Made by a program: the position numbers and the translations under genes. Under the pieces are notes generated by a model that did not search any database, was not told the origin of the DNA, and saw only the letters and a program-made list of their open reading frames with translations. From Cryomorphaceae bacterium (GTDB lineage Bacteria > Bacteroidota > Bacteroidia > Flavobacteriales > Crocinitomicaceae), in assembly GCA_002683585.1 (NCBI GenBank), contig NYTQ01000108.1, positions 1 to 9,816 of the forward strand: a DNA stretch of 9,816 bases, in the 5' to 3' direction. Numbering within the stretch: position 1 is the stretch's first letter; every line of letters starts with the position of its first letter. Shown here in pieces: positions 1-9,816 of this stretch.

Positions 1-1353
1 TTAGTAAAGCCTGATGCCAGTGCCTCGGCCAGCGCGAGCATGAATCATGCTGAAATCGCGGTAGACAAGATAACCAAGAGCGTCATTCATGTGATCATAC
101 CCCGCATCTTTATCAGGGTCGCCTGCTTCTGTGTACGACTGAAGCTCTAAACATTCAATCGTTCGTTTGCACCATGGCGCGACTTGAAGCCTTACTTCGG
201 CTTTCCCATTTTCCAACAAAGCTTGTACAGAAGCCACCCTATCGCGGACGGGAGGATTAGCCCTTGGTGATTGATTACTGAACCCATAAGACTCCAAGAT
301 CTGAATGTCCGTGCGTGAAGCATTTGTACTTCGGTTGCCGCCAGATGCATCAGGGTAGACGTAAACCTGGCGCCCATCAGCGCGGCGTTGTATTTCTTGT
401 GCCATAGCATCAGTGTCATGGGCACTTTTAATTTCATCAATTAAGTAAAGACTGTTGTTAAGGCGAACACCGATCACTGCAGACATGTTTCCGATATTGA
501 AGTCGATTCCGACACGCAACGGTTCGTTTTCATATTCTTTTTCTGGAAGAACTGAAACGTGTTTGGCACGGTCAAAACGGTCATAAACCTGACCGGTTGT
601 CAGATTGCAAAATTGGCCTTCCAGATAAGCCTTCAAAAGGCTCGGGTCGTAGTTGGCTTCGAGACGCTCAATAAAGTCTGGCGGTAAGTGTGGATTATCT
701 GCACTGCGCATCCTGATTAGCTTTCGATCAGGACGCTGCTGCGCTTCTTCTGTGCCAAACGTGTTCCACATCCAGCGGAATCCTTCAGGCGTTGATGCAG
801 CAGCAAACTGTCGAACGTTGCCAGCACGCAAGCGGCCAAGAATTTTCGGGAATGCTTTTTGTGCGATTGATGGTGTGACTGTATCAATCTCGTCAGCAAG
901 AACCCAGGCAAGGTTCAAACCAATAATTCGAGACCATGATTCAAAAGACCGGCAAAGAATTTTTGTGTCTCCACCTGGTAAATGCAATGTGTAATCCGGA
1001 AGCGGGCTTGCTCTGAACGTGTATGGGATCTCATAGCTTTCTAAAAAAGATTCAAAATCATTCATCCATATATCACGCACAAGTGGGCCTGTCGGCTCCA
1101 TCACACAACCTAAAAAGCCTTGATTTGCTATCGCAAGTAAACAACTTTTAGCGGCTAACGCTCGCGTCTTACCTGCTCCATACCCTGCTGACAATCCTAA
1201 AATTTCTGTATTCTCATCTTCTACAAAAGCAAGCTGCCCTGGATGCAAGTCTTGTTTAATTTGCGCGACTAAAGCTTTAACATCTAGCGTGCTGTCACTT
1301 TCTCCAACACGTCGCAGGATTGACCCTTTTTCGATGTGACTAAGGATCGTCAC
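1..1353 (-). CDS. terL: Phage terminase large subunit (ATPase-nuclease packaging motor)
   Basis: This is the DNA-packaging motor that pumps phage DNA into the prohead and cuts it. The 450-residue protein is complete. The N-terminal ATPase has a Walker A loop AGYGAGKT (56-63, Lys62), a Walker B strand VLADEID with Asp154 and Glu155, and a coupling motif ASTPEG (186-191). The C-terminal RNase H-like nuclease shows acidic residues in the expected order: Asp284 in GIDFN, Asp335 in YPDASG and Asp424 in DHMNDALGY. The length is normal for the family. The start is GTG at 1353-1351, which overlaps the stop of the upstream gene as GTGA; no other usable start follows until Met85. No Shine-Dalgarno site is visible, so translation is probably coupled to the small terminase gene. 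The call is firm; the packaging type (cos or pac) cannot be told. Confidence 0.96.
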   Translation of the reverse strand: MTILSHIEKGSILRRVGESDSTLDVKALVAQIKQDLHPGQLAFVEDENTEILGLSAGYGAGKTRALAAKSCLLAIANQGFLGCVMEPTGPLVRDIWMNDFESFLESYEIPYTFRASPLPDYTLHLPGGDTKILCRSFESWSRIIGLNLAWVLADEIDTVTPSIAQKAFPKILGRLRAGNVRQFAAASTPEGFRWMWNTFGTEEAQQRPDRKLIRMRSADNPHLPPDFIERLEANYDPSLLKAYLEGQFCNLTTGQVYDRFDRAKHVSVLPEKEYENEPLRVGIDFNIGNMSAVIGVRLNNSLYLIDEIKSAHDTDAMAQEIQRRADGRQVYVYPDASGGNRSTNASRTDIQILESYGFSNQSPRANPPVRDRVASVQALLENGKAEVRLQVAPWCKRTIECLELQSYTEAGDPDKDAGYDHMNDALGYLVYRDFSMIHARAGRGTGIRLY

Positions 1354-1667
1354 TGAATGACTTGTGCGATCTGTGCTGCGGTCTTAATACAGCCTAAAGC
1401 AGCATTCAGATTGTTTTGTTTACGGGCTTCTTTTTGCAGCGTTGCGAGCTGAGCAAGGATTTCTGCAGTAAAAGTCAAACGATCTGTTTCCCAGTCGGCC
1501 CGGATAAGCTCCCGTGCTTTGGCGATATACGTGTCTGTCTGCCGTTCAGCAACTTCCCATTCTTTCGCGCAATACTGCACGATCTCAGAACGTACAGCAC
1601 CGTTTGCTAAAAGACGAGCAACGCGGTTAACGCGCATGTCTACTTCAATCTTGGTTGATTTAGCCAT
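1350..1667 (-). CDS. Probable terminase small subunit
   Basis: This 105-residue protein sits directly upstream of TerL and overlaps it by four bases, the usual place for the DNA-recognition subunit of the packaging enzyme. Residues about 8-55 look like a helix-turn-helix domain (RVARLLANGAVRSEIVQYC, then a recognition-like segment with RQTDTYIAKAR). Residues 60-105 are predicted to be a long helix rich in Ala, Gln and Leu, which would suit an oligomerisation region. The ATG shares a base with the preceding stop (TAATG), which indicates coupling. The call rests mainly on position, size and helix-turn-helix appearance, not on a recognised family signature; another small DNA-binding protein is possible. 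Confidence 0.62.
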   Translation of the reverse strand: MAKSTKIEVDMRVNRVARLLANGAVRSEIVQYCAKEWEVAERQTDTYIAKARELIRADWETDRLTFTAEILAQLATLQKEARKQNNLNAALGCIKTAAQIAQVIQ

Positions 1668-2341
1668 TAGATCGGTTTCTCAATAATGAACCCTGCGAAA
1701 TCACCAAACCTGAACCATTGGTAAGGATTGCCTGGCAAGTGATCAGGAGAGATTGGCCGTTGTACACCTGCCAAGGATAATTCCTTTTGGATTATTTCAT
1801 CGGATGAAACACCTGCAGAGAATTTACCTGCAAGCGTGAGGCGGTACATGATCGTACTGATGTAACCGTCAACGGGTTCAAGCTTGTCAAAGATGATGAT
1901 GGCACCGCCTGGTTTGCACTTGTCGTACAGATGATGGAGGAATGATCGACGTTCTGATGGCTCGACAAACATCAGGCAAAGGAACAGGATTGCTAGGTCA
2001 TAACTCTTGTATGGGTAAAGCTGAGCTTTAGTGCACGCGAACTCACCTGGTGCGCGGTAAAGCGATTGCATGGCCTGTGATGGCTCAATGCCGATTAAGT
2101 GAGCGTTACGGGTAGCAAGCGTTTCTTGAATGCTGCAACCAATATTGCCCGTGCTGCAACCGATGTCGTACACCAAGCCATCTTGTGGGATGTAGTGGCG
2201 TGCTACGTGAGAGATGGCATTGGTTGCTAATTCGTACCAAGGCAACTGTTCCCGAACGTGTTGGTCAAAACCTTTGGCTACATCATTAGTTTCAAATGTC
2301 CAAGACCGTGGAACGGTCAGGTGATGCGGTGTATTGGTCAT
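1667..2341 (-). CDS. CmoA-like SAM enzyme (carboxy-SAM synthase family)
   Basis: This is a class I SAM-dependent enzyme of 224 residues. By eye it resembles bacterial CmoA, which makes carboxy-SAM from SAM and prephenate for tRNA wobble-uridine modification. Matching blocks along the length are WTF near residue 14, the LPWY turn at 33-36 (VPGY in E. coli), motif I YDIGCSTGN at 58-66 (YDLGCSLGA), FVEPSERRSFL at 125-135 (FLEPSERQALL), the PGGAIII strand at 144-150 (PGGALVL), SSDEIIQK near 179-186, and the WFRFGDFAGF end (WFQCFNFGSL). As I recall, E. coli CmoA uses Arg199 to hold the carboxylate; my ungapped alignment puts Glu187 there, so the exact reaction is uncertain. The ATG overlaps the amidotransferase stop as TGATG. 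No tRNA-modification partner (CmoB) is nearby. The genes upstream are an amidotransferase and a DNA methyltransferase, which suggests carboxy-SAM is used on DNA. A plain methyltransferase is the alternative. Confidence 0.78.
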   Translation of the reverse strand: MTNTPHHLTVPRSWTFETNDVAKGFDQHVREQLPWYELATNAISHVARHYIPQDGLVYDIGCSTGNIGCSIQETLATRNAHLIGIEPSQAMQSLYRAPGEFACTKAQLYPYKSYDLAILFLCLMFVEPSERRSFLHHLYDKCKPGGAIIIFDKLEPVDGYISTIMYRLTLAGKFSAGVSSDEIIQKELSLAGVQRPISPDHLPGNPYQWFRFGDFAGFIIEKPI

Positions 2342-3702
2342 CAGTCTTTTGGCAGGTAACCAAACTGCTTTCGCAATTGGTTGTTATAGAAAATCGTAGG
2401 GCTAGCGATCTGTTGTTGCATTTGAGATGCGATACCAGATGCGCCTTGAAAGGTGTCTTTCTGTCGCTTGACTATCCAGTCAGGAACAAGGTCTTTAGCA
2501 GCTTGCTTAAGCAGTTTTTTCCCTGGCGGTGATTCAGCCTTGTCGAGGTTGATAACGCGTTCTACTAGCTGTTGCTGCATGAAAGGTAAGCGACATTCGA
2601 CACCAGCTGCCATGAATGCTTTGTTGCAGCGAACGAAATTGCCACGGGACATTTTGGCGAGCTGTGCGTGACGGAGCTTAATGAAGTCAGAAGTAGTTTT
2701 AGCTTTTGAGGCTTGGATGCAGAAGTTGCCATAACCACCAAAGAGTTCATCTGCTGCCTCACCTGATAGACATGCTTTAAACCCTTCTGCAGCAATGCGT
2801 TGCGCTAGGGGAATACAAAGGATGGCAATTTCAATTTGCGCTTTGCTGCTGATTTCGATTGTATGAATCGCTTGGTCAATGAGATCAGGTGTCGGATCAA
2901 CCGGCACTTCGATTAACGGAACTGATAGGTCAGAGCAAAGGCGTCTAGCTGCTGTGAGATCTGGTGAATGACTGTCGAATGATGCTGTGAATGCCGTGAC
3001 GTTGCTGGATTGCTGTTTAGCTAAAGCCAGGATGAGGCTGCTATCAAGACCACCAGAAATCAAACAACAGACTGGTGCATCAGCATGCAGGCGTTGCTGT
3101 ACACCATCAGTCAGCAATGAAAGAACGTCAGTGACAGTTGTGTATTGATGGCTTGGGAGCTTGTAATGCTGAAACCATTGACCATTAGTCAAGTCGAAAC
3201 CGTAACCAGGCGGAACAGCAATTGGTTTTAGGTTGGCTGAAAATGCCTTACGTTCTGACGCGTAGAGATAACCGGTTTTTGTTTTAGCAACGTATAGAGG
3301 GATTTTGCCAAACGGGTCACGCGCTAAATAATGGTTGCCGTGCTGGTCTGAGAAAGCAATGGCGTACATGCCATCGATTGCTGAAAGGCTGTTGATGCCT
3401 TGACGGGTAAGAAGATCAGCAAATGATTCAGTGTCGCCTGTGGTTTGGAATTGATGAGGCGACTTAGCTTTGAGTTTGCTGTAGTTCCAGACTTCACCGT
3501 TGAATGACAACGTGGTGTCTTGATGGCTGAAGGGTTGCGCTGATGCGTCAGTGAGATCAACTAAGGCAAGACGTACATGACCGTGAACCATTGGGCCATG
3601 GTGCTTGATGCCTATGCCATCAGGGCCACGATGAATGATGCGATCCAGCATCTGCTGAATGACTTCAGTGGTGGTGTTGATACCACCAGCTATGCCACAC
3701 AT
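2341..3702 (-). CDS. Asparagine-synthetase-like glutamine amidotransferase
   Basis: This 453-residue protein belongs to the AsnB family. It moves ammonia from glutamine to a carboxylate activated with ATP. The N-terminal class II glutaminase has the nucleophile Cys2 (MCGIAGG), HRGPDG (24-29), Arg44, the oxyanion segment FNGE (67-70) and GDTE (89-92). The C-terminal synthetase has the PP-loop SGGLDSS (216-222), SGEAADELFGGY (313-324), GVECRLPF (367-374) and RQKDTF (413-418), all in family order. It is about 100 residues shorter than E. coli AsnB. The reading frame extends 26 codons further upstream, but the start must be at 3702 because Cys has to follow Met, and an AGGAG site lies 8 bases before it. 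It overlaps the methyltransferase gene by 13 bases and the CmoA-like gene by one. It may make free asparagine, but in this setting amidation of a carboxymethyl group on DNA is attractive. Confidence 0.93.
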   Translation of the reverse strand: MCGIAGGINTTTEVIQQMLDRIIHRGPDGIGIKHHGPMVHGHVRLALVDLTDASAQPFSHQDTTLSFNGEVWNYSKLKAKSPHQFQTTGDTESFADLLTRQGINSLSAIDGMYAIAFSDQHGNHYLARDPFGKIPLYVAKTKTGYLYASERKAFSANLKPIAVPPGYGFDLTNGQWFQHYKLPSHQYTTVTDVLSLLTDGVQQRLHADAPVCCLISGGLDSSLILALAKQQSSNVTAFTASFDSHSPDLTAARRLCSDLSVPLIEVPVDPTPDLIDQAIHTIEISSKAQIEIAILCIPLAQRIAAEGFKACLSGEAADELFGGYGNFCIQASKAKTTSDFIKLRHAQLAKMSRGNFVRCNKAFMAAGVECRLPFMQQQLVERVINLDKAESPPGKKLLKQAAKDLVPDWIVKRQKDTFQGASGIASQMQQQIASPTIFYNNQLRKQFGYLPKD

Positions 3703-4763
3703 GAAAGGATCTCCTTTTCGATAGTGGCTGCAACCTGTTTCATCATGAGCGGCGGTACTGCCCGCCCCATTCGCTCCCATCGTTTCAAAAATCCACCAGT
3801 CAAGCTGAAGTCGTCAGGGAAACTACAAAGACGTTTAACTTCAGGAATAAATAAAAACCGTGGTTGATCCCAGTGATAATGAACACAAGTAGCTGCAATA
3901 GTTGGCGAAGGTTTACGAGGATGTAGTTTGCAATTGTTAAAAAATGACGCTTTGCCTGATTCAGCTTCACAAGCAGCTGAAAAATTATTACCTGGAGTTG
4001 TTTTGGTCCATAAGCGAAATTCTTTGGTATTTTCTGAAATTATTTTAATTTCGTCTTCTGTCGGTGGGGTAATGCCTGTAATGGCTTCTTCAACAGTATA
4101 AACGTACGGGAATGGTTTGGGATGAACCGGAGCGATGTTGAGGTCATTACGTACACCAATGAAAATAGTGCGTTGCCGTCCTTGAGGAACACCGAGCCAT
4201 TTTGCATCTAAGACTTTACAAGAAACGTTATAGCCACAATGTTTTAGTTCTTGAAGGATTCGTTTGAAATAACCTTTGGCAGTACCTTTTACGAGGCCGG
4301 TAACGTTTTCAGCCACAAAAACTTTAGGTTGAACACCTTCAAGGATTCGAGCGTATTCGTAAAAAAGATCATCTACGCGTTGCGAACCATCGCTGTAGTC
4401 CTTGACTTTCCCCCAGCCTTTTTCACGGCTGCCTGCTGTTGAAAAAGCAGAGCACGGTGGCGAGCCATCAAGAATGTCTAATTCTCCTTTGGCTACACCT
4501 GCCCGTTCTAAAAGCTGCTCTGGTTGCAAATCACGGATGTCTGAAGTGTCGAGATAGCTATCAGGATGGTTGGCTTTATAAGTACGTTGTGCTTCAGGAA
4601 TAAATTCAAGAGCATAGGCAACGCGATAACCAGCCATGCGATAACCAAGGCAAGAACCGCCGCAGCCTGAAAAGGTACTTGCAACGGTGTAACCATTCCA
4701 AGGCAGGTCTTTAATTTCCTGCATCAAAGGTACACGGTATTGAGGCTTATCTATAACAGTCAA
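3690..4763 (-). CDS. Cytosine-C5 DNA methyltransferase with Arg in motif X
   Basis: This enzyme transfers a one-carbon or related group from a SAM cofactor to carbon 5 of cytosine in DNA. The 357 residues hold the family motifs in order: motif I TFSGCGGSCLGY (30-41), motif IV GSPPCSAFS with catalytic Cys104, motif VI AENVTGL (151-157, Glu152), motif VIII QGRQRTIFIG (194-203), a short target-recognition region (about 205-280), motif IX RKPSPTIAAT (283-292) and motif X GRAVPP (333-338). Motif X normally reads GNxV; here Asn is replaced by Arg334, next to the expected cofactor site. The start is TTG at 4763-4761, overlapping the ParB-like stop as TTGA. The next option is ATG at 4724, which lacks a good ribosome site but would lose no motif. 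No restriction enzyme gene is nearby, so it looks like a protective phage enzyme. Target sequence and transferred group are unknown. Confidence 0.95.
   Translation of the reverse strand: MTVIDKPQYRVPLMQEIKDLPWNGYTVASTFSGCGGSCLGYRMAGYRVAYALEFIPEAQRTYKANHPDSYLDTSDIRDLQPEQLLERAGVAKGELDILDGSPPCSAFSTAGSREKGWGKVKDYSDGSQRVDDLFYEYARILEGVQPKVFVAENVTGLVKGTAKGYFKRILQELKHCGYNVSCKVLDAKWLGVPQGRQRTIFIGVRNDLNIAPVHPKPFPYVYTVEEAITGITPPTEDEIKIISENTKEFRLWTKTTPGNNFSAACEAESGKASFFNNCKLHPRKPSPTIAATCVHYHWDQPRFLFIPEVKRLCSFPDDFSLTGGFLKRWERMGRAVPPLMMKQVAATIEKEILSCVA
3711..3718 (-). promoter_or_regulatory. Shine-Dalgarno site of the amidotransferase gene
   Basis: Read on the minus strand, AAAAGGAG lies 8 bases before the ATG at 3702-3700. 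It is one of the few clear ribosome binding sites in this window and decides the start: translation begins at the Met-Cys pair and not at the upstream Met at 3780. It lies inside the end of the methyltransferase gene. Confidence 0.8.
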
Positions 4764-5266
4764 GATGATTTACCACTCCATTCGTATCCACAAGATGGGC
4801 AGCGATGTTCGGTAGTGATGTCGTCGTCTACTTCGTCAAAATCTTGGGGTGGTTCTAATTCAGAAACAGGATCACCCGTGATGGAATTAAGGTCTTCTGG
4901 GGTAAACCAATCGTTGATGTCATGCTCTTGCGATAGCGTATGAAGCATTTCTTGATCCCATTCAGAAAGATCAGAAGTGCGGTTGTCAGCAAGAGCTAAA
5001 CCGATTTTTTGTTCTTCTGAAAGGTTAGTGCGTTTGATAGCAATGATTTCGTCACCATCAGTTTCGATGATGCGTACGTTTTGAATACCTGCTGCTTTAG
5101 CGCCGTCAACCGTTCCATTGCCAGCAAGGATACGGTTCTCTTCATCAATGACAATGCTGCGAGCAGCACCGTAACGTTGCAATGATTCTTGGATTAGCTG
5201 TGAAGACCGATCAGTTCTGCGCCGTGCATTTTTATGATCTGGCTTGAGAGACTTGATTGATGCCAA
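4760..5266 (-). CDS. ParB/sulfiredoxin-fold protein with C-terminal Cys knuckle
   Basis: This 168-residue protein has a ParB N-terminal-like domain over residues 5-105. Signs are the opening strand SIKSLKPDHKNARRRT, IVIDEENRILAGNGTVDGA (38-56) and LALADNRTSDLSEWD (90-104). This version is common in phages and mobile elements beside DNA methyltransferases, as here, where the next gene starts inside its stop codon. An acidic linker (135-150) leads to HRCPSCGYEW (154-163), which is half of a zinc ribbon with only Cys156 and Cys159. The start is TTG at 5266-5264; the frame upstream runs to a TAA at about 5320 with no ATG or GTG. No ParB helix-turn-helix domain follows, so plasmid-style partitioning is unlikely. 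It may help DNA targeting of the modification enzymes; its activity is not known. Confidence 0.84.
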   Translation of the reverse strand: MASIKSLKPDHKNARRRTDRSSQLIQESLQRYGAARSIVIDEENRILAGNGTVDGAKAAGIQNVRIIETDGDEIIAIKRTNLSEEQKIGLALADNRTSDLSEWDQEMLHTLSQEHDINDWFTPEDLNSITGDPVSELEPPQDFDEVDDDITTEHRCPSCGYEWSGKSS

Positions 5267-7005: not shown

Positions 7006-7314
7006 TCAACGGCGTTTTGCGTTTAAAGCACAGATGACAGTACAGACGATCTTTTCTACATCTCGGCTGTTGACGTTGTACAAACGATTTACAGCAGCTA
7101 CCGCGGCATCAATCGAATCCCGACCTTTCGAATAATGGACTGGCTTGATCTCAGGAATTGGTGCGGGTTGATTTGCTTCGCTCAGTACACGAGCCCGTAG
7201 CAGTTCTTGGCGCGGGATACCGCGCTGCATGGCCTCAGCGTTTAAGGCGTCGCGTTCTTCTTCAGTCAAGCGGACATCAACCCGGACAGGGTACGTGCGG
7301 TTGCAATCAGGCAT
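7006..7314 (-). CDS. Probable ribbon-helix-helix DNA-binding protein, 102 residues
   Basis: Residues 8-45 have the pattern of a ribbon-helix-helix DNA-binding domain like those in Arc- or MobC-type proteins: a basic beta strand YPVRVDVRLT, helix EEERDALNAEAMQRG, a turn IPR and helix QELLRARVLSEA. A Pro-rich linker follows (APIPEIKPVHY). The C-terminal half is helical (DSIDAAVAAVNRLYNV and EKIVCTVICALNAKRR) and may mediate dimerisation or partner binding. The ATG shares a base with the ATPase stop (TAATG), so the two are translationally coupled. A role with the ATPase in replication, or as its regulator, is likely. The fold is well suggested; the partner and site are inference. Confidence 0.7.
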   Translation of the reverse strand: MPDCNRTYPVRVDVRLTEEERDALNAEAMQRGIPRQELLRARVLSEANQPAPIPEIKPVHYSKGRDSIDAAVAAVNRLYNVNSRDVEKIVCTVICALNAKRR

Positions 7315-8909
7315 TAGAAATCAAATGAATCAGTTGGCTGAGCTTTAACAGGCTCAGGTTGACAAGGGCGAACGTCTAGCTCCCAGCGCAGGTTGCTGAT
7401 GGTCACCATGGGGCTCCCGATTTTTTCAACTGAAATTTTGTCGGGGTTGCTTCCGTCGCGAACAATAAACCCGTTAGCCCATTCGTCACCCCTGCGGATT
7501 TCGACTTTGGTCTTTGGATTTATTGAATTAGAGGGTAGTACGCTTGTATCGTCCTGGGAGTTAATTTTATTGGATTTAATGGATTCAACTGATAAAGATC
7601 CAATAGATCGGTTAGATCCCGGTTCTGAGCCTCCCAGGCACCATTCCATGGCAGCAGGGCTTGCCATCCAATAAATCCGTGGCCTTGAACCTGTTTCTTC
7701 TGCCCGAACAGGAATCGACAGCCCTTTTGCTTTTAGTGCCCGCAGCTCACGCGAGACATGCCCTTTTTGTTTGTCTAGCTCTGTAGCAAGCTCTTCAACA
7801 GAAACATCAGCGTTAAGCCCTGTACGCAAAGTTAGGTAGTCAAAGACCGATGCTCTAACGCCGCCTAGTTCCATGATGCGTTGCCCAGCCCTTTCAACTT
7901 TCTGTGCCTCTTCCAGTCCATCTAGATAAGTCCAACCACCTTCAGGCAGGTACTGCCCCATCACACCACCTGATTCATTGCCGCCTCGACCTTTGCCAGC
8001 AAATCCCACGCGCTTGTCGATACGGGCTAAACCGTCTTCTTCTTGTGCAACCCAGCGCATTAATACGCCCCAGCTAAACACCGAGCTGATCGAGCTGCTG
8101 CCTCGGCACTCTGTAATCCAGTCCCATGTTGTTGGCCTTTTGACAGAGTGATGAATCACTAGAAGCGTTGCCCCTGTTTTTCTCAATTGGCTAATAGCAT
8201 TACGAATCGGTTGTGCATACCTAGAAGTGTTTTCTTCAATGCCTGTCGGCTCCATCATTGAACTCAATGAGTCGATGATTACCAACGGAAATTGATGCTT
8301 TTCAATTTCTTCACGCATCCGACGAATGCCGTCTTTCGTAAAGTTGTACTGCTCGCCAGTTTCCATGCTGCAGAAGAAATCAACTGAATCAGCTTTAAGC
8401 GTCTGATCTTCTGCAACCAAAGTTTCGCGGCGTAATAGATGAAGCCAATCACCTTCGCTTTGGTCTGTGCCAAATACAAGAACAGGCATCCGTTCGTTAG
8501 GTATTGACAAATCACGACCTAAAAACTGCGGCACACGATCGCGCAATGCAGCAATCAATCCAGTAGAAAACGATGACTTGCCAACCTTTGGCTGGCCGAT
8601 AATGACGTTTGACTCGCCAAGCTTGACCATGCCGTCAAGCAGGAACACAGATTCGGTAGCTTGTAGCTGTTGGCCAGCCCTATAAACGTTGCCTTTCTGA
8701 AGCCGACGCTCAGCAGCGTCAAGATATGCCTTAAGTTCCGTATCTTTTGCGTCGTCGTGGACGCTGAGATCGAAAGCCTTGTTTCGCATTAGGGGCATCC
8801 AATCCCGTTCCCTTTCGGTTTGGATCAATGTTTCGGCGTGTAGGGCTAGGGCTGTTAACGCTTGTTGAAGTGGCGGTGTGCTGCTTAAGGGTTTTTCTGT
8901 AGAAGGCAT
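7314..8909 (-). CDS. RecA/RepA-like replicative ATPase with winged-helix domain
   Basis: This is a 531-residue RecA-fold ATPase of the RepA/AAA_25 kind found as replicative helicases or loaders in plasmids and phages. From the ATG at 8909, the Walker A loop GQPKVGKSS is at 105-113 (Lys111), Walker B PLVIIDSLSS holds Asp213, and the strand LLVIHHSVK at 249-257 carries the His pair typical of the family. RIDKRVGFAGKGRGG (296-310) may bind DNA. A winged-helix domain follows (about 360-415; DVSVEELATELDKQKG and the recognition helix HVSRELRALKAKG). The last 90 residues are Ser- and Asn-rich and may be a tether. The frame is open to a TTG at 8957, but the first ATG at 8909 is preferred. The upstream gene overlaps it by 179 bases in a different frame, which may hide a frameshift. 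Confidence 0.85.
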   Translation of the reverse strand: MPSTEKPLSSTPPLQQALTALALHAETLIQTERERDWMPLMRNKAFDLSVHDDAKDTELKAYLDAAERRLQKGNVYRAGQQLQATESVFLLDGMVKLGESNVIIGQPKVGKSSFSTGLIAALRDRVPQFLGRDLSIPNERMPVLVFGTDQSEGDWLHLLRRETLVAEDQTLKADSVDFFCSMETGEQYNFTKDGIRRMREEIEKHQFPLVIIDSLSSMMEPTGIEENTSRYAQPIRNAISQLRKTGATLLVIHHSVKRPTTWDWITECRGSSSISSVFSWGVLMRWVAQEEDGLARIDKRVGFAGKGRGGNESGGVMGQYLPEGGWTYLDGLEEAQKVERAGQRIMELGGVRASVFDYLTLRTGLNADVSVEELATELDKQKGHVSRELRALKAKGLSIPVRAEETGSRPRIYWMASPAAMEWCLGGSEPGSNRSIGSLSVESIKSNKINSQDDTSVLPSNSINPKTKVEIRRGDEWANGFIVRDGSNPDKISVEKIGSPMVTISNLRWELDVRPCQPEPVKAQPTDSFDF

Positions 8910-9168
8910 CAGAGGCCAGTGATGGTGAAAAGTAGTCGTCGTCGGTGTAAACGCCAAGGCGTCTTAACTCGCGAAAAGATGTCAGCTCTTCGCTTGATTC
9001 ATAAGGGTGTTCTAAATCCCATGCATCTAACGCAGCGTCTGAGCGTTGCTTTTGCATTGCGCTGTATTTACCGCACATTGCTTCGTCTTCGTCGTATTCA
9101 GACAGAAGCGAATAAGGCACCCATTGCAGAAGGTCAAAAGCTCGCTCTTCTGCATTGAGATTAGTCAC
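8731..9168 (-). CDS. Hypothetical acidic protein, 145 residues, possibly frameshifted
   Basis: I do not recognise this protein. Residues 1-90 look coding: acidic, with FDLLQWVPYSLLSEYDEDE and FRELRRLGVYTDDDYF. After about residue 92 it turns into a Ser, Thr, Pro and Arg stretch ending RRRKRYGT, which is typical of a wrong frame, and that part is fully overlapped by the ATPase gene. The GTG start at 9168 overlaps the previous small gene's end by 8 bases (GTGACTAA). The change coincides with a run of five A on the minus strand (8892-8896). Removing one base there would join its first 90 residues to the ATPase, making one protein of about 617 residues. So this is either a separate gene with an unusual tail or the N-terminus of a longer ATPase. 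Confidence 0.6.
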   Translation of the reverse strand: MTNLNAEERAFDLLQWVPYSLLSEYDEDEAMCGKYSAMQKQRSDAALDAWDLEHPYESSEELTSFRELRRLGVYTDDDYFSPSLASDAFYRKTLKQHTATSTSVNSPSPTRRNIDPNRKGTGLDAPNAKQGFRSQRPRRRKRYGT

Positions 9169-9356: not shown

Positions 9357-9816
9357 ATGGCCCTTATGCCATTGGAATGGAACCCCTTGATGCTAGAACC
9401 GATAGCAGAGCTTGAATTTTACAAAAAGCAGCACCGGTACAGGCTGCGCAATCAGTGGCTAGCACACAACGTTTCTGATGTACTGGCTTTTGATATGGAG
9501 CCTTTTAAGCAAGCAATGATTGACAAGTACAAAGACGGGCCAGATGGTTGGGCTGTTAGAGGTGAAACCATCCATGATTGGCTTGATCAGCATCTGAAAG
9601 CTAAAGAGCCTTCTGTGCCAGAAAAATGGGCACCGTGGATAAACGCTTTGTTAGATCAGCAGTTTTTTGACGGTGCAGAAATACTTGCGACTGAGTACCG
9701 CGTTGTTGATCCTTTAAAAAGCTGTGCTGGCAGTTTTGATTTTTTGATCAAAAAAGACGGTTACATCCAAATTGGTGACTTGAAAACAGTGAGCAGCAAG
9801 CGTGCTGTTGCAGCGC
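9357..9816 (+). CDS. PD-(D/E)XK exonuclease, RecB/Cas4-like (partial, 3' end cut off)
   Basis: This is the only plus-strand gene. The frame is open from ATG at 9357 to the window end, giving 153 residues. It shows the RecB/Cas4-type nuclease pattern: RGETIHDWLD with His73, ATEYRV with Glu113, AGSFDF with Asp128, and the catalytic IGDLKT with Asp141 and Lys143. Phages use such nucleases for recombination and DNA end processing, which fits the replication genes next to it. Other in-frame starts are ATG at 9366 and 9390; the Trp-rich start (LEWNPLMLEP) makes one of the first two likely. No AddB- or Cas4-type iron-sulfur cysteines are visible in this part; the C-terminus is missing. Confidence 0.86.
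   Translation, partial: MALMPLEWNPLMLEPIAELEFYKKQHRYRLRNQWLAHNVSDVLAFDMEPFKQAMIDKYKDGPDGWAVRGETIHDWLDQHLKAKEPSVPEKWAPWINALLDQQFFDGAEILATEYRVVDPLKSCAGSFDFLIKKDGYIQIGDLKTVSSKRAVAA

Follow-up and report, generated by a model that had tools for sequence, protein, structure and literature searches.

The window analysed here, a 9,816-base fragment of phage DNA (contig NYTQ01000108.1), carries on its minus strand a cassette of three overlapping genes, which encode a C5-methyltransferase-family protein, an AsnB-like amidotransferase and a CmoA-like enzyme, with a ParB-like gene on one side and terminase genes on the other. Read from right to left, the order is ParB-like gene, C5-transferase, AsnB-like gene, CmoA-like gene, a small gene and the terminase large subunit, and along this six-gene row the successive overlaps given by open reading frame (ORF) coordinates are 4, 13, 1, 1 and 4 bases (ParB-like/C5-transferase at 4760-4763, C5-transferase/AsnB-like at 3690-3702, AsnB-like/CmoA-like at 2341 and CmoA-like/small gene at 1667). 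The 13- and 1-base overlaps on one strand noted in an earlier, sequence-only reading of this DNA agree with these coordinates. That reading had also proposed a possible new pathway; however, its first two steps and a ligase step with glycine as the amine have been shown for Synechococcus phage S-B43 (PMC12783734), and we rejected the claim of novelty since the chemistry is mostly in print.

According to the available text of that report (Nat Commun, 7 December 2025), S-B43 CmoA makes carboxy-S-adenosylmethionine (carboxy-SAM, Cx-SAM), CmoX carboxymethylates C5 of cytosines in GC motifs to give 5-carboxymethylcytosine, with Arg350 of this enzyme (SpCmoX) contacting the carboxymethyl group, and the ligase CmoY attaches glycine, the glycine amide being present in virion DNA. 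In its expression system, E. coli CmoA served as the source of Cx-SAM. The report also pointed out a cluster of ligases with a glutaminase domain, for which glutamine-derived ammonia was considered the likely substrate. The kind of system is known already, and the window is a further case in its glutaminase branch. Among the literature matches listed, 5cxmC and CmoX in the DNA sense occurred only in PMC12783734, carbamoylmethylcytosine, carbamoylmethylcytidine and ncm5dC did not occur, and no printed test of 5-carbamoylmethylcytosine as an end product was found.

Transferase, CmoA-like protein and ligase

The transferase gene (3690..4763, minus strand; 357 aa, TTG start) matches PF00145 (E 1.7e-55) and encodes a CmoX-like protein predicted to be a Cx-SAM-using DNA cytosine C5-carboxymethyltransferase. 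Its closest relative in the Protein Data Bank is 8yf3, CmoX of phage S-B43 (254 bits), followed by the HaeIII methylase (95 bits), and all nine SpCmoX residues checked are matched in the window protein (F31, E53, F54, D75, S101, P102, P103, C104 and R334). By sequence, the window transferase is nearer to the solved CmoX than to methylases. The alignment places the catalytic nucleophile of the SPPC motif at Cys104 (codon 4452..4454, minus strand; Cys98 in SpCmoX), and Arg334 (codon 3762..3764, minus strand) corresponds to SpCmoX Arg350, the residue holding the carboxymethyl group (PMC12783734), where the HhaI methylase has Asn304. In SpCmoX, the R350N exchange abolished the use of Cx-SAM.

Among relatives, this arginine goes with CmoA. 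The queries used to gather the loci were five transferases, one ligase and one CmoA; because of this sampling by similarity, with two of the locus scans taking the best 80 of 362 and the best 80 of 190 relatives, the locus counts are no census. After removal of ORFs shorter than 250 aa or with an identical core, 300 transferase ORFs gave 228 unique ones. Arg occupies the place of R334 in all 181 of those with CmoA on the locus (any profile match at E 1e-6; 3 of 235 such matches score below 60 bits), and the 47 without CmoA have Asn (28), Arg (17), Cys (1) or Ile (1). Sixteen of these 47 have at least 3 kb on both flanks, with 14 Asn, 1 Arg and 1 Ile. A ligase of either type is found on the locus for none of the 28 Asn-type ORFs. 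Dereplication at 85% identity leaves 85 rows, 72 with Arg and CmoA and, without CmoA, 11 with Asn, 1 with Arg and 1 with Ile. One Asn-type transferase, that of L081 (relatives L124-L140), is about 50% identical to the window CmoX, follows a ParB-like gene and has no CmoA on the stretch; it is probably a normal methylase and thereby a natural control close to the window enzyme. At four loci (L177, L178, L182 and L202) two CmoX genes, which may differ in target sequence, stand in tandem after a glutaminase-type ligase.

The CmoA-like gene (1667..2341, minus strand; 224 aa) is predicted to encode a phage CmoA-type Cx-SAM synthase, on the basis of a TIGR00740 match, the fold and residue changes in common with SpCmoA, the S-B43 enzyme. 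In the structure model (predicted local distance difference test score 81.5, residues 1-17 poor) the CmoA fold is present: the six best structural matches are CmoA/YecO chains (nearest 4gek/1im8/4iwn) with template modelling (TM) scores of 0.79-0.83, and other methyltransferases reach at most 0.77. In E. coli CmoA, Arg199 binds the carboxylate (PMC3663124); its place holds Glu in the window protein (Glu187, codon 1781..1783 by alignment, minus strand), as it does in SpCmoA and 72 of the 75 locus sequences. Since SpCmoA, proven active, has Glu there, Arg199 does not define the phage CmoA branch, and we rejected its absence as evidence against CmoA function. With this Glu and an adjoining Arg-type CmoX, the window protein has the features of the phage (SpCmoA-like) branch and is predicted to be a Cx-SAM synthase belonging to it.

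The AsnB-like gene (2341..3702, minus strand) encodes a glutaminase-type CmoY-like ligase of 453 aa, a predicted 5-carboxymethylcytosine amidotransferase with glutaminase and AsnB-type synthetase domains (PF13522/PF13537 and PF00733); its start is placed at 3702, with the class-II amidotransferase start MCGI, versus 3780 in the mechanical ORF list. E. coli AsnB (1ct9) is its best fold match, the asparagine synthase model TIGR01536 gives 275.5 bits, slightly over the cut-off of 267.1, and the AsnB fold and catalytic sites are present, namely the glutaminase site, the ATP site and equivalents of E348 and K449. The protein encoded beside CmoX combines a class-II glutaminase domain, with its N-terminal Cys, and an AsnB-type synthetase domain. 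Among the 120 homologues listed, the nucleophile Cys2 (codon 3697..3699 by homologue alignment, minus strand; Cys1 in mature AsnB) is Cys in 111 of the 111 with a letter there (nine have none), E70 of the glutaminase is kept in all 120, as in the window, and the aspartate-binding Arg of AsnB is replaced by Glu in all 120. The aspartate-site residues were taken from PMC12018205 and, for Cys523, from a title cited in PMC5775275: Arg325 and its neighbours are not found in the window ligase, and the C-terminal region with Cys523 is missing from the window protein and from that of Streptomyces phage TurkishDelight. In the glutaminase-type ORFs of the gathered loci, the nucleophile Cys is present in 79 of 79 readable sequences, R44 in 80 of 80, D90 in 82 of 82 and N68 in 78 of 80.

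At the place of a Val and the aspartate-binding Arg of AsnB, the alignments put Lys287 and Glu291 of the window ligase, within a KAQIE segment (2830..2844, minus strand), a signature common to glycine-type CmoY. It is present in 83 of 83 glutaminase-type and 44 of 45 glycine-type ligases, and in none of the 10 proteins of a small control set. Here, 'glycine type' denotes ligases in which no glutaminase domain was found and which are similar to SpCmoY, the only one with a known assay; the class of 45 ORFs excludes L036, L166 and L184, which are cut or split glutaminase-type ligases, and four more such short pieces were seen. E348 of AsnB is retained in the glutaminase type but not in the glycine type. 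The window ligase has E315 and K415 as in AsnB, whereas glycine-type ligases show Glu and Lys at these places in 0 of 45 each, with 43 of 45 lacking a letter at K415.

Co-occurrence of the three genes and exchange of the ligase

The sequence-only reading had set the presence of the trio in other phages as a test beforehand, with a trio found only here as the outcome that would count against it. In fact, a search with only the amidotransferase gave 34 loci, of which 32 have all three genes and two, L004 and L012, are truncated by a contig end, so the trio is not a chance assembly. Moreover, four contigs (L005-L008) with ligases 92-98% identical to that of the window carry the same open genes. 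The two ligase types never occur together: of 224 loci, 76 have a glutaminase-type ligase, 47 a glycine-type ligase, 3 a cut glutaminase-type ligase and 98 neither. Where the cassette is followed by the same terminase genes as in the window, the arrangements are parB-Yglycine-X-A (12 loci), parB-X-Yglutaminase-A (8) and parB-X-A (8). The order A-Y-X, as in S-B43, occurs in 22 loci with a glutaminase-type ligase and 18 with a glycine-type ligase, the latter including S-B43 itself and the distant L119, whose ligase lacks the signature. On the examined stretch, 65 of the 181 Arg-type ORFs with CmoA have no ligase (L043-L046, L067-L074, Moraxella phage Mcat8, which is L002, and others); in these phages the 5-carboxymethylcytosine may stay bare, or a ligase encoded elsewhere may act on it. 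In contig L036, the ligase and CmoA are each broken over two reading frames.

In some S-B43-like contigs, one ligase type has taken the place of the other. L142 and L155 have matching DNA on both sides, 95-96% identical, and between these flanks the ligases are exchanged (L142:5189-6001, L155:4604-6001), the exchanged segment running from the cmoA stop codon to the cmoX start codon, with the glycine type in one and the glutaminase type in the other; L142 also has ~430 extra bases before cmoA. The same exchange is seen at lower identity between L161 and both L217 and L180, and between L209 and L196. No statement of such an exchange was found in the available text of PMC12783734. We regard this exchange as the strongest evidence that a ligase of the glutaminase type fills the role of SpCmoY and acts on the same base.

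Predicted pathway and its alternatives

From what was observed directly, namely the arrangement of the genes, the residues, the joint occurrence of the trio and the one-for-one replacement of the ligase gene among relatives, we read the cassette as a glutaminase-kind CmoA-CmoX-CmoY system, predicted with a probability of about 0.78 to turn the phage's own DNA cytosines into 5-carbamoylmethylcytosine. The CmoA-like protein would convert SAM and prephenate to carboxy-SAM, as suggested by homology with the proven enzyme. The CmoX-like protein would then, via Cys104, transfer the carboxymethyl group to cytosine C5, with Arg334 gripping the carboxylate, as the arginine switch and the S-B43 enzyme suggest. 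Finally, the AsnB-like protein would activate the carboxylate with ATP by adenylation, and ammonia released from glutamine by the Cys2 glutaminase would form the amide. The first two steps are proposed by analogy with proven enzymes, and the third because of the residues, synteny and ligase swap. The order of steps given in the sequence-only reading, that is, carboxy-SAM, C5 carboxymethyl transfer and ATP-dependent amidation, remains the interpretation that best fits the tests, although its novelty did not stand. The neutral amide probably protects the DNA from restriction enzymes, and the ParB-like protein may aid DNA binding by the transferase.

Several observations weigh against this assignment. 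TIGR00740 gives the CmoA-like protein 84.9 bits (E 6.8e-24), well under the curated cut-off of 193.3; in 14 control genomes, the model matched in 9 and passed the cut-off in 1. Arg199, Asn132, Asn90 and Asp117 of E. coli CmoA are all missing from the window protein, but the proven SpCmoA likewise lacks all four and works faster than E. coli CmoA, and phage CmoA must therefore hold carboxy-SAM in another way. Half of the Asn-type transferase ORFs (14 of 28) have a flank shorter than 3 kb, so that a CmoA could lie outside the examined stretch, and of the 17 Arg-type ORFs without CmoA on the stretch 16 are short-flanked and one, L091, has more than 3 kb on both sides. The link between Arg and CmoA is clean, yet it rests on few evolutionary switches, since the tree, built without the motif, yields only three independent pairs (five on all branches), none of them opposite, and the sign test is not significant (p 0.25-0.5). 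The ligases swapped in among the S-B43-like contigs are distant from that of the window (38% identical for L155), and the exchange therefore informs on the window only through family membership. Furthermore, Thr replaces E70, the Glu of the NGE motif in AsnB and the window ligase, in 29 of 80 readable glutaminase-type ORFs, all of the S-B43-like group (L144-L217) and including L155, and a protein of the glutaminase cluster was insoluble in the published attempt (PMC12783734).

The Thr substitution also speaks for the best-surviving alternative, in which the 5-carboxymethylcytosine made by CmoX is linked by the AsnB-like protein to another amine, such as glycine, another amino acid or a polyamine, with the glutaminase domain a relic. 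Indeed, the sole tested CmoY uses glycine (PMC12783734), and the 65 Arg-type ORFs with CmoA and no ligase on the locus are compatible with this view. On the other hand, the glutaminase nucleophile and glutamine-binding residues are otherwise kept, E70 is intact in the window and the listed homologues, and the AsnB-like E315 and K415 of the window are absent from glycine-type ligases; we therefore consider use of another amine unlikely. Far less probable is a metabolic role for the AsnB-like gene, which would then encode an asparagine synthetase serving the host, next to a transferase that makes plain 5-methylcytosine and a CmoA that modifies tRNA. This would fit the TIGR01536 score, the fold match to AsnB and the annotation of some relatives as asparagine synthase and tRNA (cmo5U34)-methyltransferase, but it is at odds with the Glu in place of the aspartate-binding Arg, the loss of the Cys523 region, the company that the ligase keeps with Arg-type CmoX, the presence of Arg334 rather than Asn in the window transferase, and the lack of a CmoB family match among the window proteins scanned (ten in the Pfam and PHROG scans and six in the TIGR scan of this fragment). 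Decay or silence of the cassette, leaving the DNA unmodified, has nothing direct in its favour beyond the split genes of the relative L036 and is equally improbable, since the three frames are open and overlapping, the checked catalytic residues of transferase and ligase are kept, and four contigs with 92-98% identical ligases (L005-L008) carry the same open genes.

Taking amidation with glutamine-derived ammonia as the preferred reading, we favour, with somewhat less assurance, a broader proposal. In this proposal, 5-carbamoylmethylcytosine would be a new natural DNA base, and near-identical S-B43-like phages would keep cmoA and cmoX unchanged while exchanging the glycine ligase encoded between these genes for a glutamine amidotransferase. 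Sister phages would then carry distinct amides at identical cytosines, a chemical disguise that a single recombination could change; Lys287 and Glu291 would form the shared site where both ligase types read 5-carboxymethylcytosine in DNA. For this branch of a just-published DNA modification, the analysis offers a concrete, testable frame: a specific predicted product, 5-carbamoylmethyl-dC, with a calculated m/z of 285.12, an arginine switch associated with carboxymethyl transfer and a two-residue signature proposed for the substrate of the ligases. Natural phage pairs that differ at the locus mainly in the ligase are a ready experiment on the purpose of the end group.

Genomic neighbourhood and comparison with known systems

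The first gene of the cassette (4760..5266, minus strand) encodes the ParB-like protein, a predicted DNA-binding helper of the transferase, which matches phrog_620 (E 3.2e-27) and had no match in the Pfam scan; a ParB-like match was found in 185 of 305 sequences searched, mostly heading the cassette. Between the cassette and the terminase lies a small gene (1350..1667, minus strand; phrog_34910, function unknown), by position likely the small terminase subunit, and the terminase large subunit (1..1353, minus strand; PF17289, PF03237, phrog_2) is at the window edge. The window also contains an AAA_25 ATPase gene (7314-8957, minus strand) and, on the plus strand, a gene (9357-9815) with matches to the phage exonuclease families phrog_466/298. 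When the phage collection was searched for close matches to the window in full, none was found, and the genome scan with the ligase gave a single distant match (29% identical), in Acinetobacter rudis.

The S-B43 system (PMC12783734; 8yf3) has the same three protein families side by side and shares with the window the SPPC motif and Cx-SAM arginine of the transferase, the Glu at the Arg199 place of CmoA and the K...E signature of the ligase. By contrast, its ligase, 271 aa long and without a glutaminase domain, joins glycine, whereas that of the window has 453 aa with a glutaminase; the gene order is cmoA-cmoY-cmoX versus parB-cmoX-cmoY-cmoA, and identity over aligned residues is 43% for the transferases and 19% for the ligases. 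The glutaminase-bearing ligase cluster of the same report (representative A0A7T0Q3R0) combines glutaminase and synthetase domains and is CmoX-linked, like the window ligase, which, matched by the cluster's description, appears to be a member. The nearest annotated phage cassette with such a ligase is that of TurkishDelight (gp123-125), with a ligase 35% identical to that of the window. E. coli AsnB (1ct9), alike in fold, glutaminase site, ATP site, E348 and K449, is 29% identical to the window ligase, in which Arg325 is replaced by Glu, Asp385 by Asn and the C-terminal part is missing. The CmoA-CmoB pathway of tRNA cmo5U uses the same Cx-SAM synthase family, as judged by fold and a weak model match; here, in contrast, no CmoB is seen in the window fragment and cytosine in DNA is the predicted acceptor of the carboxymethyl group.

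A further likeness is to 5cmdC, which we take to be 5-carbamoyloxymethylcytosine and which is made by a carbamoyltransferase acting on hydroxymethylcytosine. This base of phage metagenomes (PMC8670742) resembles the predicted product in its neutral carbamoyl-type side chain on phage cytosine C5, and the available text of that paper does not mention CmoA or asparagine synthase. Finally, the 7-deazaguanine cassette of Achromobacter phage Motura (L297:6001-7281) has, as in the window, an AsnB-like amidotransferase amid DNA-base genes. The Motura protein lacks K287/E291 and, judging from its neighbours, would act on deazaguanine; perhaps AsnB was recruited a second time here to work on bases of phage DNA.
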